Shown piece by piece: positions 7,793 through 43,977 of a stretch of 64,000 nucleotides of DNA. Numbering within the stretch: the first letter of the stretch is position 1; every line of letters begins with the position of its first letter. Location of the stretch: assembly GCF_014652355.1 (NCBI RefSeq), contig NZ_BMYQ01000001.1, forward strand, positions 184,180 through 248,179. The letters are read 5' to 3'. The translations under genes and the position numbers were made by a program. The notes under the pieces are model-generated. The model was given only the letters and a program-made list of their open reading frames with translations, was not told the origin of the DNA and searched no databases. The stretch is from Gemmobacter lanyuensis. GTDB lineage: Bacteria; Pseudomonadota; Alphaproteobacteria; Rhodobacterales; Rhodobacteraceae.

Positions 7793-8839
7793 ATGGCCAA
7801 GCCGAGAAAGCTCTCTTCCAATGAGGTCGCAGCCCTTGTGGGCGGCCTCATCGATATGGATCTGGGCGCCAACGCGGGGGCGGAAGGATCCGATGTTCGC
7901 CCCTATGTCTTTGGCGCCAATGATCTTTCGCTGGTCGGGGATTACTACGGCCTGCGGATGATCAATGAACGCTTCTGCCGCATCGCACGGGCGGCCTTTC
8001 TGCCCATGCTGCGCTTCCAGCCGCGGATTTCCTGCTTCCCGCCGGAAATCCGCACCTTTGACGATTACCGCAACGGCCAGGAAAACTTTGTCAGCCTGAC
8101 GCAAAGCCGCATTGAGGAACTGCGCGGCAACCAGCTGATCGTGATCCCGCCCAGCTTTGTCTGGATGTTGACCGATGCCTATTATGGCGGGTCGATCCGC
8201 ACGCTGAAATCCAGCCGCACGGAATTCACCGGCACTGAACAGCGTGTGATCGAGCTGATCACCGACCGGCTGAACCATGCCCTGCAACTGGCGTGGCGCG
8301 ACCTGATGACGGTGACTTTCAATGTCTCGAGCCGGGAAGAGAACATGCAGTTCGCGGCCTTCGTCGATGGCGAGGACCATGTGGTGAACTGTTCCTTCAT
8401 GGTTCAGCTGCCGGGGCTAGAACCCGCAAGCTTCGACATCCTCTATCCGCTGCAGGCACTGAAGCCGATTTCGGGGCAGCTGCGGTCGCGGATGCAATCG
8501 GATTTCATCGACGAAAACGACAACTGGCGCAGCCGTCTGGAACGGGCGGTGATGGCGGTACCGCTGACCGTTTCGGCCCGGCTGGCCGAACCCGAAATGT
8601 CGCTCCGGCAGGTGCTTCAGATGCAAGAGGGCGATGTCGTGCCGGTCAGCCTGTCGGAAACCGTCGAGGTGATGGTCGAGGGCGTGCCGCTGTTCCGCGC
8701 GCGGCCCGGCGCCATTCGTGGCCATGCGGCGCTGAGCGTGACGCAATCTTCGCTGGGGGCGGGGCAGTCGGTCTCGCTTCAGGTGCCGGGGCAGTCGCCC
8801 GGCGATGCGCAGGGCCATATGGCTGCTGCCGCAGAATGA
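7793..8839 (+). CDS. fliM: Flagellar motor switch protein FliM
   Basis: FliM forms the C-ring and binds phosphorylated CheY. The N-terminal segment LSSNEVAALVGG (about residues 5-16) corresponds to the CheY-binding peptide LSQDEIDALL, though several positions differ from the enterobacterial form. The CheC-like middle domain covers about 45-235, and a SpoA domain that pairs with FliN covers about 255-330. At 348 residues it is of normal size. It starts 9 bases after fliL. Confidence 0.95.
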   Translation: MAKPRKLSSNEVAALVGGLIDMDLGANAGAEGSDVRPYVFGANDLSLVGDYYGLRMINERFCRIARAAFLPMLRFQPRISCFPPEIRTFDDYRNGQENFVSLTQSRIEELRGNQLIVIPPSFVWMLTDAYYGGSIRTLKSSRTEFTGTEQRVIELITDRLNHALQLAWRDLMTVTFNVSSREENMQFAAFVDGEDHVVNCSFMVQLPGLEPASFDILYPLQALKPISGQLRSRMQSDFIDENDNWRSRLERAVMAVPLTVSARLAEPEMSLRQVLQMQEGDVVPVSLSETVEVMVEGVPLFRARPGAIRGHAALSVTQSSLGAGQSVSLQVPGQSPGDAQGHMAAAAE

Positions 8840-20537: not shown

Positions 20538-20834
20538 TTAGTGCGCGAACTCGAACAGATCCCGCGTCAGGCTTTCCGCGATCCGCTCGGGGTCGGGCTT
20601 GTAGCTGCCATCGGCAATTGCGGATTTGATCGCGTTCACCCGTTCAAAATCAATGGGCGGCCCCGCTTGCAACGCCGCAGGAAGGGCGGTTGCCTCGGTG
20701 CTCAGGCTTACGGTTTCCGAACCGGTCGTGGTCGCAGGACCATCCGGTGCGGCGGTGCGGGCGCGGCTGTCGATCGCGGTGGGATCACCTTGCAGCAGCA
20801 CGCGACCCGGCTGTGTGTTGATAGGCTGGACCAT
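20538..20834 (-). CDS. flgM: Anti-sigma-28 factor FlgM
   Basis: FlgM holds FliA inactive until the hook is finished and FlgM is exported. The 98-residue protein has an unstructured N-terminal half and the conserved sigma-binding C-terminus, with FERVNAIKSAIADGSYKPDP followed by ERIAESL. I chose ATG 20834, which follows GAGGGGG at good spacing; a start at 20870 would put that site inside the gene. It has its own late promoter upstream, so FliA would induce its own inhibitor. Confidence 0.93.
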   Translation of the reverse strand: MVQPINTQPGRVLLQGDPTAIDSRARTAAPDGPATTTGSETVSLSTEATALPAALQAGPPIDFERVNAIKSAIADGSYKPDPERIAESLTRDLFEFAH

Positions 20835-23669: not shown

Positions 23670-25832
23670 ATGACTGCCCCGGCCCGCGTCTCTGCCGGTG
23701 ATCAGGGCTTCAAGGCCCAGCTGGGCACACTGGCGCTGCCGGTCGGTATCCTGTGCATGCTGGCCATGATGATCGTGCCGCTGCCGGTGGCGCTGCTCGA
23801 TATCTTCTTCGTGGGCAATATCCTGCTGTCGCTGCTGGTGCTGATGGTGGCGATCAACAGCCAGCGCCCGCTGGATTTCTCAAGCTTTCCAAGCCTCTTG
23901 CTGATCGGAACGGTGCTGCGTCTGGCCCTGAACGTCGCTTCGACCCGCGTCGTGCTGGGCGAAGGACACACCGGTCATGGCGCGGCGGGCCAGGTGATCC
24001 AGGCTTTCGGCGATTTCGTCATCGCGGGCAATTTCGTGGTGGGCTTTCTGGTGTTTGCCATTCTGGTCATCATCAACCTTGTGGTGCTGACCAAGGGGGC
24101 GGGCCGCGTGTCCGAAGTTTCGGCCCGCTTCACGCTGGACGCCATGCCCGGCAAGCAGATGGCCATCGATGCCGATCTGAACGCGGGCCTGATGACCCCG
24201 GATGAGGCCAAGGCCCGCCGGATCGAAGTTGCGGCCGAGGCCGACTTTTACGGCTCGATGGATGGTGCGTCGAAATTCGTGAAGGGCGACGCGGTTGCCG
24301 GTATCCTCATCCTGGCGATCAACGTGATCGGCGGGGTGCTGATCGGCACGCTGCAACACGGGCTGACGTTGAACGAGGCCGCCTCGACCTATGTGCTTCT
24401 GGCCATCGGGGACGGGCTTGTCGCGCAGATCCCGGCACTGCTTCTGTCGATCGCCACCGCCATCATCGTGACCCGCGCGGCCGCAGCCAGCAACATGGGT
24501 GCGCTGATCGGCAAACAGGTCAACATGCCGGATGCCTGGATGCCGGTTGCGGGCGTTCTGCTGACGCTGGGCCTTGTGCCGGGGATGCCGAACCTTATCC
24601 TGCTGACGGCTGCGGCGATTGCCGGGGGCTTTGGCTGGTCTTCCCGCCGCAAGCTTGACGGGGAGGCTGCCGCTGCCGCAGGGGCCAAGGGCGGGGCAGC
24701 CCCGGCTGCAAAGGGTGGCGGTGCCGCACCTGGCAAGGCGTCCTCGGGTGGTGCTGCATCGCAGGATGCGATCACCCCGGAAGAAGTTTCCGATCACGCG
24801 CCGCTCTCGCTCCAGATCGGCTATGGCCTGATCCCGCTGGCCGGGGATGGTGGCGGGGTGCTGGTGCCGCGCATCACCGCGATCCGCCGCGAAATCTCGC
24901 GCGCAATGGGGTTCGTGGTGCCGGGGGTGCGCATCCGCGATGACCTGACGCTGGGGCCGAACCAGTACCGCATCCGCATCGGCCAGACCATCATGGGCGA
25001 GGATGTTGTCTATCCTGACCGCAAGCTTGCCATTCCCGGTGCTGGCTCCACGCGCAAGCTCAAGGGCGTGAACGTCAAGGACCCCAGCTTCGGTCTCGAT
25101 GCAGTGTGGATCCTGCCCCATCAACAGGTCGAGGCCGAGGCCGATGACCATATGGTCATCGAACCCGAGGCGGTTATCGCGACCCATCTGGGGCAGGTGT
25201 TGCAGAAACACGCAGGCGACCTGATCGGCCCCGATGAGGTGCAGGCTCTGCTGGATACGCTGGCCAAGGCCGCGCCCACGCTGGTGCAGTCGGTGGTGCC
25301 GAAACTGGTGCCGCTGCATGTGGTCACCTCGGTCCTGCGCTGCCTGCTGAATGAACGGGTGCCGATTTCCGACATGCGCAAGATCCTCGAGGGTCTGGCA
25401 CTGGTGTCGGGGCGTACCCAGAACCCGCAGGAAATGGCCGAGGCGCTGCGCCCCGCGCTGGTGCCGCTGCTGCTGCAGCAACTGGTGCCCGTCACCGCGC
25501 CGCTGCCGCTCATCACCTTGGAACCCGATCTGGAACAGATGCTGATGCGCGCCCGCCGCCCTGCGCCCGACGAAGGGCTGGTCATCGACGGTGGCCTTGC
25601 GGGCACCATGGTGCGCTCGTTGTCGCAAACGCTCGAGGCCGCATCGGGCCGCGGGCAGCGCCCGGTGGTGATCGTGGCCCAGGCCCTGCGCCGCAGCTTT
25701 GCCGCTTTCCTGCGGCCGCACCTGTCGGATGCCGTGGTGCTGGGCATTCATGAATTGCCCGAAGCCCGGCGCATCGAAGTCATCGCCGCGATTGGCGGGC
25801 CCTCGGCCCTGCCCGGCCAGAAAGAAGGGTGA
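23670..25832 (+). CDS. flhA: Flagellar export gate protein FlhA
   Basis: FlhA forms the nonameric export ring that docks substrate-chaperone complexes. The 720-residue protein has about eight membrane helices in the first 330 residues, the FHIPEP signature region (about 140-180, with FTLDAMPGKQMAIDADLNAG), an Ala/Gly-rich linker (about 330-370), and the cytoplasmic docking domain. I chose ATG 23670, which follows a GCGGAG motif and gives the usual short N-terminus; the longer frame from 23565 includes the promoter. It leads the flhA-flhF-fliA unit. Confidence 0.95.
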   Translation: MTAPARVSAGDQGFKAQLGTLALPVGILCMLAMMIVPLPVALLDIFFVGNILLSLLVLMVAINSQRPLDFSSFPSLLLIGTVLRLALNVASTRVVLGEGHTGHGAAGQVIQAFGDFVIAGNFVVGFLVFAILVIINLVVLTKGAGRVSEVSARFTLDAMPGKQMAIDADLNAGLMTPDEAKARRIEVAAEADFYGSMDGASKFVKGDAVAGILILAINVIGGVLIGTLQHGLTLNEAASTYVLLAIGDGLVAQIPALLLSIATAIIVTRAAAASNMGALIGKQVNMPDAWMPVAGVLLTLGLVPGMPNLILLTAAAIAGGFGWSSRRKLDGEAAAAAGAKGGAAPAAKGGGAAPGKASSGGAASQDAITPEEVSDHAPLSLQIGYGLIPLAGDGGGVLVPRITAIRREISRAMGFVVPGVRIRDDLTLGPNQYRIRIGQTIMGEDVVYPDRKLAIPGAGSTRKLKGVNVKDPSFGLDAVWILPHQQVEAEADDHMVIEPEAVIATHLGQVLQKHAGDLIGPDEVQALLDTLAKAAPTLVQSVVPKLVPLHVVTSVLRCLLNERVPISDMRKILEGLALVSGRTQNPQEMAEALRPALVPLLLQQLVPVTAPLPLITLEPDLEQMLMRARRPAPDEGLVIDGGLAGTMVRSLSQTLEAASGRGQRPVVIVAQALRRSFAAFLRPHLSDAVVLGIHELPEARRIEVIAAIGGPSALPGQKEG

Positions 25833-25837
25833 GGACC

Positions 25838-26845
25838 ATGCCAAGGATCACCGTGCGCGCCAAGGACTCGGCTCTCGCCATGGACGAGGTGCTCGATCGC
25901 TTGGGGCCTGACGCCTATATCCTGTCCACGCGCCATGAACAGGGGATGGTCGTGATCGAGGCGGCGTCGGATGCTGCCGCCGCAGACCCGCGCCCGCAGG
26001 GCGGGGCCTTTCAGCGCCGGAACGGCTATGCGGGGTCAGGGGCCGGTGCAAGGCGATCCCGGTCCGATTTCGCCCGCGAATTGCATGGACAGATGCAAGA
26101 GCCCGCCGCCGAGACTTCGCCCCCCACCTGGGCCGGCACGGCGCCGCTCTGGATGGCTGATCTGTCGGCCGATCTGCAGCGCGAGACGCCGCAGGCCGCC
26201 TTTGCCGATCTTCTGCGGCTGCTTCCCCCCGAGGGTGAGGTCTGGCCGAGTGACCGGCTCGTGCTTTGTGGCCCGCTGGCCGAAGACCGCGTGCAGGCTG
26301 CGCTACGCATCGCCGCAGCCTGGCGCAAGGCGGATGCGGGCTGCCGTCCCCAGTTGATCGAGGCGCTGACCCATGTGCCCTTCCGCGAAACGGCGCTCCG
26401 GTCCTGGTCGCGGCTTCTGGGGCTGGACCATGTGGTCACGGCCGAGGGGGATCTTTCGGTGCCCACCCCCGGCGCCCCGCAGCTTGTCTGCGTCCCGTGG
26501 GAGGCCGACCCGGTGGAGATCATGGCCCTGACCCGCGCCGAGGGCGAGGTGCTGCTGGTGTTGCCCGCCGGGCTGCATCCGCGCCGCCTGTCGCGGCTGA
26601 TCGCGCCCTGGCGCGGAAGCGGAGCTGGCGTCTGTCTTTGCGGGCTGACCGATGAACCGCCGCAGCCCGAAGAACTGATGCTGCTGGCCCAGGCCGGGCT
26701 GGTGCTGCGTCTGACCGGCTGGGGCAGCGATCTGATGGATGCGCTGGATACGCCCGGGTCGGAAGACCTGCGCGATTGGGCGCAAATCTGGTGCGACGAA
26801 GCCGGCCTTACCCTTTCCCAAGCCGAACAGGAGGTTGCTGCATGA
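25838..26845 (+). CDS. flhF: FlhF-like protein lacking GTPase motifs
   Basis: FlhF is normally an SRP-type GTPase that sets flagellar place and number. The N-terminus matches FlhF (ITVRAKDSALAMDEVLDRLG then PDAYILSTRHEQG, residues 4-36), and position between flhA and fliA is the classic one. The rest follows the FlhF layout but without its nucleotide-binding motifs. Where the P-loop GPTGVGKTTT should be, residues 145-152 read GPLAEDRV; the DTAG motif is replaced by VPWEAD (about 219-224); TKLD is reduced to GLTDE (about 269-273). The open frame is intact, so it does not look like a pseudogene. ATG 25838 follows GGGTGAGG. The symbol is tentative. Confidence 0.65.
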   Translation: MPRITVRAKDSALAMDEVLDRLGPDAYILSTRHEQGMVVIEAASDAAAADPRPQGGAFQRRNGYAGSGAGARRSRSDFARELHGQMQEPAAETSPPTWAGTAPLWMADLSADLQRETPQAAFADLLRLLPPEGEVWPSDRLVLCGPLAEDRVQAALRIAAAWRKADAGCRPQLIEALTHVPFRETALRSWSRLLGLDHVVTAEGDLSVPTPGAPQLVCVPWEADPVEIMALTRAEGEVLLVLPAGLHPRRLSRLIAPWRGSGAGVCLCGLTDEPPQPEELMLLAQAGLVLRLTGWGSDLMDALDTPGSEDLRDWAQIWCDEAGLTLSQAEQEVAA

Positions 26846-28911: not shown

Positions 28912-28939
28912 CTAACGGCAGGGCTCAGCCGCATGTGAG
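28912..28939 (-). promoter_or_regulatory. FliA-type promoter of the GAF-like gene
   Basis: On the - strand CTCAC, 15 bases, then GCCGTTAG. It is the same form as the promoter of the neighbouring DFSAF-repeat gene. A GGAG ribosome binding site follows before the ATG. Confidence 0.5.
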
Positions 28940-28969
28940 CGCGCGAACCATGCTTGACGCAAGGGAGGG

Positions 28970-30286
28970 TCAGGGTTGCGGCGGATCGTCGCTGTCGGGC
29001 AGATCGTCAAAGGCCGCAAAGGCCGAGAAATCGAGTTTTGGCTTGCCTTGGGGCGGAGTGGGTTCGGGCGGCGCGTCGTCGGTTTGGGCTGTTGCGGCAT
29101 CGGGTGCCGGGGTCACGAGCGTCTCGAATTCATCGGACGCAAGGGTGACCGGCGGCGCCTTCGGGGCCCGGCGCCGCTTTGGTGCAGCGGGGTTTTTCGG
29201 TGCGGGCGGAAGGATTTCAACCTCGGGCATTGCCGTGTCGTCCTCTTCGCCCGGCAAAAGGGTAAATGCCTCTGCCACCGGCAGGGATGCGCCCGATAGG
29301 GTCGCAAATTCTGCCTCGCCGTCGGCGGCATCCGGGGAGGCTGCCGTGTCATCGCTAAAGGCCGAGAAATCGGCCGTGAAGGGCGGCGGCGGGCCCTCGG
29401 CCTCGCTCTCCCCGAAGGCCGAGAAATCCACGGCGAATTTCGGGGCGGGGTCCGGGGGTGCCTCGGTTGCGGCCGGTTCGTCGTCGCCAAAGGCCGAGAA
29501 ATCGGCCTTGAAGGGCGGCGTCGGGGCCTCGGCCTCGCTGTCTCCGAATGCCGAGAAATCCACGGCAAATTTGGGTGCAGGGTCCGGGGCGGCCTTGGCT
29601 GCGGTCGGTTCGTCGTCGCCAAAGGCCGAGAAATCGGCCTTGAAGGGCGGCGTCGGGGTCTCGGTCTCGCTGTCTCCGAATGCCGAGAAATCCACGGCGA
29701 ATTTCGGGGTGGGGTCCAGGGCGGCCTCGGCTGCGGCTGGTTCGTCGTCGCCAAGGGCCGAGAAATCGGCCGTAAAGGGCGGCGTCGGGGCCTCGGCCTC
29801 GCTGTCGCCAAAGGCCGAGAAATCCACCGCGAATTTCGGGGTGGGGTCGGCTGGCGGATCTTCGGTGTCGAAGGCGGAAAAATCGATCTCGAGTTTGGGC
29901 TTCCCTGCCTCGGCGACCGGCGCCGCAGCTTCGGGTGGCGGGTCTTCGACCGCACCCAGCATCTTGGCCACATCATCCAGAGCCAGCATCGTGACCAGCC
30001 CTTTGGGCTTGGGTTTGGGCGGCGGCGGCGGTGGTTCCTCGATCACGGGTTCGGGTGGCAGTTCGGGTTCTGCGACCACGGCCGGTGTCTCTTGCAGGCG
30101 GCGCAGCACGGCGATCCGCAGTGCAAGCAGCATGCGACGTTCCGCCCCCCGGTCACTTTCGGCATAAAGCTTGCCAAAGCGTTTGAGCGCCTTTGGCAAA
30201 AGCGGCAGCTCCAGCGCCGCAACGGTGCTGTGCGCGATCGGCATGACCGCAGCGGCTGCGGTCGATCGCAGGGCGGTTTTCGGCAC
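28970..30286 (-). CDS. DFSAF tandem-repeat protein of unknown function
   Basis: This 438-residue acidic, Pro-rich protein belongs to no family I know. Residues 1-70 form a helical domain with [21 protein letters not shown] Pro/Lys hinge (about 73-98) and a short helix ([19 protein letters not shown]) follow. Four tandem 44-residue repeats cover 151-326; each carries two copies of DFSAF followed by Gly/Ser and acidic residues. Single extra copies occur at about residue 135 and near the C-terminus, ten in all, one as DFSAL. The start is GTG 30286 after GGGGGTAAGCC. It lies between the GAF-like gene and flgB and has a FliA-type promoter. The repeated short motif suggests a multivalent binding protein. 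Confidence 0.75.
29309..29836 (-). repeat. Four tandem 132-bp coding repeats
   Basis: Four copies of a 132-bp unit (marker GAATTTC or its variant at 29435, 29567, 29699 and 29831). Because the unit length is divisible by three, each copy adds 44 residues in frame. The copies are highly similar at DNA level, so copy number may change by recombination. Confidence 0.9.
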
Positions 30287-30321: not shown

Positions 30322-30337
30322 TGGCATCCTCCTTGCA
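30322..30337 (+). promoter_or_regulatory. Sigma-54 promoter of the flgB operon
   Basis: TGGCAT-CCTCC-TTGCA matches the sigma-54 consensus with one mismatch; the -12 GC lies about 60 bases before the flgB start. Confidence 0.83.
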
Positions 30338-30351
30338 AGGCTCATGTCCGA

Positions 30352-30394: not shown

Positions 30395-30784
30395 ATGACG
30401 CTGAGCCTGCGCGACAGCCTCGGGGTTCATGCCGATGCACTCGTCCTGCGCGAGACGCGAAACACCGTCCTGCACGGAAACATCTCGAACGCCGCGACGC
30501 CGGGCTACAAGGCCCGCGATTTCGATTTCACGGCTGCCCTGCGCGATGCCACCGGGCGCAGCAGCGACCTGCCGCTCGAGGGCGGAACCCCCGAGGCGGC
30601 CCACGGGCTCGATACCCCCGATCTGGGTTTTCGCGTGCCGGTGTCGATGGCGCTGGATGGAAATACTGTCGATATGGGCGTGGAACAGGTGCAGTTTTCC
30701 GAAAATACCCTGCGCTACCAGGCCAGCCTCGATCTGCTCAACCGCCGCATCTCGGGGTTGATGACCGCGATCAAGGGAGAGTGA
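30395..30784 (+). CDS. flgB: Flagellar proximal rod protein FlgB
   Basis: This is the 129-residue rod subunit at the base of the axial structure. The rod-protein N-terminal motif is seen in [20 protein letters not shown] (about 25-44), and the C-terminal helix [20 protein letters not shown] is conserved. ATG 30395 follows AGAAGGGGA. The open frame reaches back to 30092, but that part overlaps the divergent gene and the sigma-54 promoter. Confidence 0.94.
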
Positions 30785-42771: not shown

Positions 42772-43977
42772 ATGAGCACGCCATCCCCCGAGGCTGGGGC
42801 CTCTGACGGCGGCCTGATGCGGGTCGCATCGGACAAGATCTCGCGCTTGATGGATCTTGTCGGTGAACTTTCGCTCAGTGTTGCGGAAACCGTCCATTCC
42901 CCGGATTTGCAGGGGTTGGAACTTTCGCGGTTTGACGCGGCGGCCCATCGGCTGGGCATGATCGTGCGCGAGGTGCAGGATGCGGCGACCGAGCTGCGTC
43001 TGGTCCCCGTGGATGAGGTGTTCCGCCGTCTGCGGCGGATGATCCGGGAACTGGAACGCCAGACCGGCAAACGTATCGACCTTGCGGTCGAGGGCGCGGA
43101 TACCGCCATCGACAAGCTGGTCGCCGACCGGCTCTATGACCCGCTGCTGCATGTGTTGCGCAACGCCGCCGATCACGGGATCGAACCGCCCGAGGAACGC
43201 CGCGCCAATGGCAAGTCCGAAGCCGGGACGATCCTTCTTGCGGCCCAGCAGGTGGGCAGCGAAGTCCGCATCATCGTAGCCGATGACGGCCGTGGCCTGA
43301 GCCGCGAAAAGATCCTCAGGAAGGCGCGGGAAAAGGGGCTGTTCGGTCCGACCGAGGAACCCGAACCCTCGGCATTGTGGAAGGTGATCTTCGAGCCGGG
43401 GTTTTCCACCGCCGAAACCGTGTCGAACCTGTCGGGGCGCGGCGTGGGGATGGATGTGCTGAATGCCACCATGACGGCCCTGCGCGGCCGCATCGCGGTG
43501 GACAGCAACGCAGGCCACGGCACCCGTGTGTCCCTGCATATTCCCGTGTCGCTGGCTTTCCTCGATTGCCTGATCCTGCGTCTGGGTGAACAGCTTTTCG
43601 CGGTGCCGATCGACGTGGTGTCGGAAATCACGCGGCCGAACCGGGGCGACCTGCCCACCATTTCCGCCCAGGGCGGGGTCGAGCTGCTGCGCCTGCGCGG
43701 CGTCCATATCCCCGTCTGTCGGCTTGAACATTACTACCGCGGGACCGCGCCCGGCACCAATGCCGCAGACAAGCAGGTCTTCGTGGTCTTTGCCACCAGC
43801 CAGGGCCAGCTGGCCGTGCCGGTGGATGAAATCCTCGACCGCCAGCAGGTGGTGATGAAACCTCTGGCCGGGCGACTGGCACAGGTGCGGGCCAGCTTTG
43901 GCTGCGCGCTTCTGGGCACCGGCGAGGTGGCCCTTGTCCTGGACTGTGAACGTCTGGGTGCGGGGGGCATGGTATGA
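42772..43977 (+). CDS. cheA4: Chemotaxis histidine kinase CheA4 (P3-P4-P5, no P1)
   Basis: This is half of a split kinase. The 401-residue protein has a P3 dimerisation segment (about 15-75), an intact P4 ATP-binding domain with N box HVLRNAADHG (127-136), G1 box DDGRGL (171-176), F box around IFEPGFSTAE and G2 box GRGVGMD (about 222-228), and a P5 domain for CheW and receptor binding (about 265-401). There is no P1 domain and so no phosphorylatable histidine. In R. sphaeroides CheA4 phosphorylates CheA3. ATG 42772 follows GGGAGGCG. Confidence 0.9.
   Translation: MSTPSPEAGASDGGLMRVASDKISRLMDLVGELSLSVAETVHSPDLQGLELSRFDAAAHRLGMIVREVQDAATELRLVPVDEVFRRLRRMIRELERQTGKRIDLAVEGADTAIDKLVADRLYDPLLHVLRNAADHGIEPPEERRANGKSEAGTILLAAQQVGSEVRIIVADDGRGLSREKILRKAREKGLFGPTEEPEPSALWKVIFEPGFSTAETVSNLSGRGVGMDVLNATMTALRGRIAVDSNAGHGTRVSLHIPVSLAFLDCLILRLGEQLFAVPIDVVSEITRPNRGDLPTISAQGGVELLRLRGVHIPVCRLEHYYRGTAPGTNAADKQVFVVFATSQGQLAVPVDEILDRQQVVMKPLAGRLAQVRASFGCALLGTGEVALVLDCERLGAGGMV

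Follow-up and report, generated by a model that had tools for sequence, protein, structure and literature searches.

The window analysed here is a 64,000-nucleotide stretch of the Gemmobacter lanyuensis genome (G000:C1:184180-248179) that holds a flagellar gene cluster. The cluster comprises fliF to flhB, rpoN, flagellin, fliD, flgM, flgA, flgT, an LPP20-like (flgP-like) gene and flhA, together with a divergent flhF, fliA, an uncharacterised gene that we call P2, the repeat protein gene that is our subject, flgB to flgL, and a chemosensory module (a CheA4-like protein, a ParA-family ATPase, a PAS-HAMP receptor and CheA); many of these genes were named from their order and from reading the sequence rather than from a family match. 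The fliM gene (7793..8839, plus strand) encodes an N-terminal EVAAL variant of the EIDAL motif, and the cheA4-like gene of the chemosensory module lies at 42817..43977 (plus strand). The FlhF-like protein (25829-26845, plus strand) has a weak FlhF match (E 0.0007) and no recognisable P-loop, with GPLAEDRVQ in its place; the P-loop is kept in G055 and G040 (GPSGSGKT/GPSGSGRS; type B, see below) and in G037 (GPSGAGKS; type A). Searches of ten same-genus genomes returned P2 matches in none (E<=0.001) and FliA matches in none (E<=1e-20).

The repeat protein gene occupies 28970..30286 on the minus strand and encodes 438 amino acids from a GTG start. Its divergent neighbour, flgB (30395..30784, plus strand), served as our synteny anchor. 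On the strand of the repeat gene, P2 (27613..28881, minus strand) comes next after a gap of 88 bp; it has no Pfam or NCBIfam match. The repeat protein is acidic (pI 4.1), contains 17% Pro and 19% Ala, and carries DFSA[FL] motifs starting at residues 135, 155, 174, 199, 218, 243, 262, 287, 306, and 419, nine of them DFSAF and one, at residue 174, DFSAL. The first nine span residues 135-310 (29357..29884, minus strand), a region that includes four 44-residue units beginning at 151, 195, 239, and 283, with eight of the ten motifs inside the units; the tenth, DFSAF at residues 419-423, is encoded at 29018..29032 (minus strand). None of 2000 shuffles of the protein contained more than one DFSA[FL], and TRF identified a 132-bp array of 3.8 copies with 89% matches. 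The tandem repeats on an acidic, Pro-rich chain described in the original prediction are confirmed by these results in number, form and arrangement.

A single-sequence model of the whole protein, of low confidence (mean pLDDT 47.5), has helices at residues 10-23, 27-41, and 46-66 and a short one at 104-110, the rest being loops, with short strands at the repeats; the P2 model is poor too (mean pLDDT 38.5). The first three helices support the helical N-terminal domain that had also been proposed (residues ~10-66; 30089..30259, minus strand). Downstream, after a Pro-rich linker, is an amphipathic motif region, M1 (residues ~96-118; 29933..30001, minus strand), picked by eye in a 13-sequence alignment. 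Neither Pfam nor NCBIfam assigned the repeat protein to a named family, consistent with the statement that no characterised protein of its kind is known, and the best match of the N-domain in a PDB profile search was weak (E 0.0063, to a lipase chaperone). An identity as FlgM was discarded, as flgM is already present at 20538-20834.

An antisense ORF of 410 amino acids (28935..30167, plus strand) overlaps the gene. A gene finder that had learned codon usage from 12 genes of the window preferred the minus frame over this ORF, with an ATG at 30244 as its start, and the homologues described below are encoded on the matching strand. Based on these two observations we took the minus frame as coding, and the antisense ORF was judged non-coding and dropped as a candidate gene. 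The differences between repeats do not by themselves settle the strand, as the repeat-to-repeat pN/pS is 0.49 in the sense frame and 0.61 in the antisense frame. Within the 44-residue units the pentapeptide columns are less variable than the spacers: pairwise codon comparison gives 7 synonymous and 3 nonsynonymous differences for the former vs. 28 and 63, respectively, for the latter, in counts whose pairs are not independent.

The gene had originally been placed among the late genes on the basis of a FliA-type promoter, a claim for which we found no support. The FliA consensus that we took by eye from the regions upstream of flagellin and fliD, which a divergent site could escape, occurs nowhere in the window beyond those source sites, and a looser form has five matches (3.65 expected), none of them between the repeat gene and flgB. 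FliA control was therefore rejected, there being no FliA-type match upstream, and the promoter-like sites that are present are of the sigma-54 type; like the FliA-type sites, these are predictions from sequence matches. One such site, TGGCATCCTCCTTGCA (30322..30337, plus strand), faces flgB and has a counterpart in all 25 family intergenic regions. On the gene's own strand, 19 of the 25 regions have a sigma-54-like site (p<=0.006 each, 500 mononucleotide shuffles), and 18 of these, all except that of G037, share by position a TGCA core with the flgB site. Five regions are without an own-strand site and that of G171 is poor (p 0.116); the window is among the five, having only a degenerate element (30333..30350, minus strand) with a GG to GC spacing of 13 instead of 12, which we read by eye and did not score as a site.

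A direct search of 394 genomes of the host's family yielded one real relative (G171, E 8.8e-5), which adjoins flgB in divergent orientation, and it was this synteny that led to the remaining relatives. FlgB matched in 24 of the same 394 genomes, and in 23 of these, window included, a candidate family gene is divergent from flgB, giving 24 loci since G348 carries two; the exception, G388, has a FliE-like gene upstream of flgB instead. In a search of the class, 10 of 289 genomes, window included, had a FlgB match; six of the other nine, from four other alphaproteobacterial families, have the gene, and the remaining three, which belong to family f13, have a MotA-like gene. Of two plasmids examined, that of Octadecabacter arcticus has the gene, annotated as a hypothetical protein, and that of Qipengyuania citrea does not. 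The total is 31 flgB-divergent loci, which supports the flagellar association proposed originally, with the qualification that flgB or cluster synteny was the route to every relative except G171, which makes the link partly one of construction. The six members outside the host's family were assigned by eye, as were the relatives' start codons, types and M1 boundaries.

Other searches added no members. A direct plasmid search returned no relative, none of 121 stretches from a pattern search of genome contigs was confirmed as a relative, and a search of 101 genomes with residues 1-139 produced, aside from the match in the source genome itself, only two weak ones (E 0.004 and 0.007), which we judged to be chance. 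A DNA pattern for two DFSAF copies, which requires GAT as first codon and misses other spellings, matched 56 genome-contig stretches in scattered organisms, judged from their titles to be chance also. The family gene is a conserved, real and overlooked one, and not a lone oddity.

We divided the family into two types, type A with 13 loci, window included, and type B with 18 loci, 12 of which were aligned (G326 of type A and G348a of type B are cut at contig ends). The types have an N-domain of ~60 residues in common: their N-domain profiles matched by hhalign with a probability of 94.5% (P 7.9e-8). In the 25-sequence set, cross-type scores of single members ranged from E 2e-7 down to no score, and the window protein alone reached only E 0.0043 against the type-B profile. 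In type B the N-domain is followed by a domain of ~43 residues that matched Pfam DUF7302 in four of the five proteins scanned (best E 8.5e-6), and the best type-B match in the PDB profile search was weak (E 0.074). No such C-terminal domain was detected in the repeat protein with the type-B domain profile or Pfam. In type A, M1, as picked by eye, follows a Pro-rich linker in 13 of 13 members, and the tail beyond it contains from 0 to ~40 motif copies, whose form is DFSAF in the window, DPFAAF in G049, DLSDMMAAF in G326 and DDLAALMDS in G228. DFSAF is a local form; conservation is seen in the N-domain and in a single amphipathic motif that follows the Pro-rich linker. The type-A member of G101 (388 aa) has the N-domain, Pro linker and M1 along with a relict of the type-B domain (profile E 1.4e-7, no Pfam match). 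What we describe of the family, its synteny, the domain exchange, the motif enrichment, the co-occurrences and the sigma-54-like sites comes from sequence comparison, and the direction of the exchange between the types is inferred.

At 11 type-B loci, a number that counts both query loci (tblastn E<0.1), and at two more by eye, the type-B gene is followed by a small lipoprotein or membrane gene (SRFEQ...DC...F.M; L023:15659-16012 and equivalents). None was found beside a type-A gene in the stretches examined.

The motif forms can be described by a core pattern, [FLMIV][SADGEQTN]A[FLM], which was chosen after the sequences had been seen. It exceeds shuffles at p<=0.009 in eight of 13 type-A and none of 12 type-B proteins, the latter having 0 or 1 match each, and the other five type-A members show little or no enrichment (p above 0.009). 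Matches number 11 in the window protein (1.0 expected), 40 in G049 (3.35), 17 in G326 (1.23) and 13 in G228 (2.25). The G049 relative (L130) is 1271 residues long and its 40 matches are mostly DPFAAF-like. Of the original suggestion that short docking motifs gather several copies of one partner, the docking-type array has support from this post hoc pattern, and we infer the multivalent binding itself. In the DFSAF array, a docking-type tail has been amplified locally. Not every member needs the array, since G164 (156 aa) and G037 (145 aa) have M1 and no array. These two short members also suit an explanation in which the array is a near-neutral expansion of low complexity and the tail a spacer, the N-domain and M1 doing the work; copy number and motif vary widely between members, and slippage can produce tandem 132-bp repeats. 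We consider this rather unlikely, however, as related hydrophobic-acidic cores recur in divergent members and the core columns are less variable than the spacers.

The position of the gene invites comparison with export chaperones. In enterics flgN, flgM, and flgA are divergent from flgB, and a FlgN-like role for hook or rod proteins would fit the gene's divergence from flgB, the sigma-54-like sites in common with rod and hook genes, and the lack of a FlgN match among the window proteins scanned (part of the window's set). In G418, moreover, the gene stays with flgB-flgL and the rest of the cluster was not found in the 100 kb examined. Against this, Pfam FlgN matched none of the 23 family N-domains scanned, and the single SctY-chaperone match (E 0.038, one of 23) is at chance level. 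Acidic repeats are, to our knowledge, not a chaperone feature, and we regard such a role as improbable.

The best and most economical reading, and one to which we give about an even chance of being correct, is that the protein is a cytoplasmic multivalent docking adaptor made with the rod and hook. On this view most of the chain would be disordered and the protein would serve the flagellum in an accessory role, with one sigma-54 promoter region probably driving both its gene and the rod/hook operon. A cytoplasmic location is suggested by hydropathy: no 19-residue stretch in 25 family members exceeds a mean of 1.45, so that the family probably has no membrane segment. The helical N-domain of ~60 residues would anchor the protein to a conserved flagellar or cytoplasmic component, and the hydrophobic-acidic motifs of the tail, here one M1 helix and ten DFSA[FL], would hold several copies of one partner, for which P2 and a chemosensory or switch protein are the first candidates. 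In a lineage without detectable FlhG, the motif tail takes the place of the small DUF7302-like domain of type B.

One concrete form of the adaptor reading makes P2 the client or co-factor of the array. The two genes are on the same strand and 88 bp apart in the window, and within the host's family P2 was matched (E<=0.001) in 11 of the 13 type-A genomes and in none of the 10 type-B genomes (Fisher 7e-5; the six type-B genomes of other families are omitted from this count). Yet P2 is adjacent in none of the other ten type-A genomes that have it, lying beside fliA in G101, beside flhB in G049 and ~59 kb away in G171; it is not detectable in G418 and G356, and is matched in G290, G288, and G273, which have no FlgB match. 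The association may also be a single clade event, as may the other type-A co-occurrences. In a FlgB-FlgC tree the 13 type-A members group together with a support of only 50, so a single origin of type A is not established and Fisher values overstate independence. We view P2 as an unlikely client. Of 13 P2 matches in other genomes, seven cover only about its last 170-190 residues.

Type A also differs from type B in switch and chemosensory proteins. A CheA4 orthologue at >=70% identity was found in 10 of 13 type-A vs. 0 of 16 type-B genomes, with weaker CheA matches, near 37%, in both types, and where this FliM is present its N-terminus reads EVAAL in 10 of 10 type-A and EV[DNES]AL in 16 of 16 type-B genomes. 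The array core, [DE]-Phi-[SA]-A-Phi, is similar to EIDAL/EVAAL, and EIDAL binds CheY (PMC6946799). The repeats could accordingly mimic the FliM N-terminal peptide and hold many CheY, or another peptide reader, near the motor as a sink or store. The profile tests did not bear this out: with an M1 profile, FliM N-termini ranked no higher than the rest of the window's proteins (E above 0.4 throughout), and against a profile built from type-A FliM just one of 25 family tails outscored all 20 shuffles, that of G164 and not that of the window (19 were outscored in G049 and 18 each in G037, G184, and G348b). Mimicry detectable by profile was thus rejected, and we retain the idea as a rival of low probability. 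A further difficulty is that G418, G184, and G356 keep the type-A gene, with its array, beside rod and hook genes, yet searches of these genomes detected neither this FliM nor CheA4; this argues against a role confined to the switch or to chemotaxis. Of the remaining cluster genes, the 60-100 kb examined yielded none apart from P2 in G184 and weak cross-matches, and other rod-type genes occur elsewhere in the three genomes. At these loci (L201, L205, and L209), where only rod and hook genes of this cluster type accompany the gene, we may be seeing remnants or hybrid flagella.

None of the 13 type-A genomes had a FlhG match (E<=1e-25 to the G040 query), whereas 15 of the 16 type-B genomes, all except G393, had one. 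According to PMC12826062, the FliM N-terminus is contacted by FlhG. A more speculative extension, which we think distinctly unlikely, is that in this FlhG-less lineage, whose FlhF lacks the P-loop in the present species, a folded adaptor was rebuilt as a disordered, polyvalent hub and assumed some of the tasks that FlhG performs at the switch complex (control of the number, site or assembly of a single flagellum), with the FliM N-terminus changing alongside. The failure to detect FlhG in 13 of 13 type-A genomes raises the testable question of how flagellar number and site are controlled without it.

Among known proteins, the polar landmark proteins HubP/FimV, which are tied to flagellar placement, have acidic tandem repeats of ~45 residues, along with a transmembrane segment, a LysM domain and a FimV C-terminal domain. 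The repeat protein is like them in its acidic repeats, but none of these three features was found in it and it has no Pfam match. Eukaryotic Eps15/epsin-type scaffolds, disordered chains studded with short acidic motifs of DPF/FxxF-like form, are an analogy in mode of action only, with no homology claimed. Closer is the type-B gene of Octadecabacter arcticus, OA238_RS27295, which has the same place, a profile-level homologous N-domain and the same promoter layout as the window gene; type-B proteins such as this differ in having a small DUF7302/DUF7210-like domain in the place of M1 and the array, and in the small lipoprotein or membrane gene that comes next in most loci. At one locus, then, a folded domain has been exchanged for motif arrays of widely differing copy number.

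The cluster as a whole resembles the sigma-54/FliA flagellar system of C. sphaeroides as presented in PMC7277832, a system termed fla3-type in a 2025 mSystems paper (PMC12363192) and delimited there as RSP_0032 to RSP_0083. In G101 the stretch from fliA to flgB measures 56.6 kb, the size that PMC7277832 gives for the fla1 locus; G101 is very probably the genome of Cereibacter (Rhodobacter) sphaeroides 2.4.1, and the family copy of this species is very probably RSP_0084. In PMC9779115, RSP_0083 is flgB and RSP_0084 a hypothetical protein that changes along with the motility genes (log2FC 2.86 when UdsC is induced, -1.81 when it is mutated), and a 2010 paper gives RSP0032-RSP0084 as the functional flagellar set (PMC3024229). 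Our search of the open-licence literature found no study of RSP_0084 function, nor any on DUF7302/DUF7210. By locus number RSP_0084 is next to flgB, like the window gene, and the G101 member shares the N-domain, Pro linker and M1 with the window protein, differing in its relict DUF7302-like domain and its lack of a DFSAF array. The family adds a conserved, overlooked gene to the flagellar system of a model organism, C. sphaeroides.
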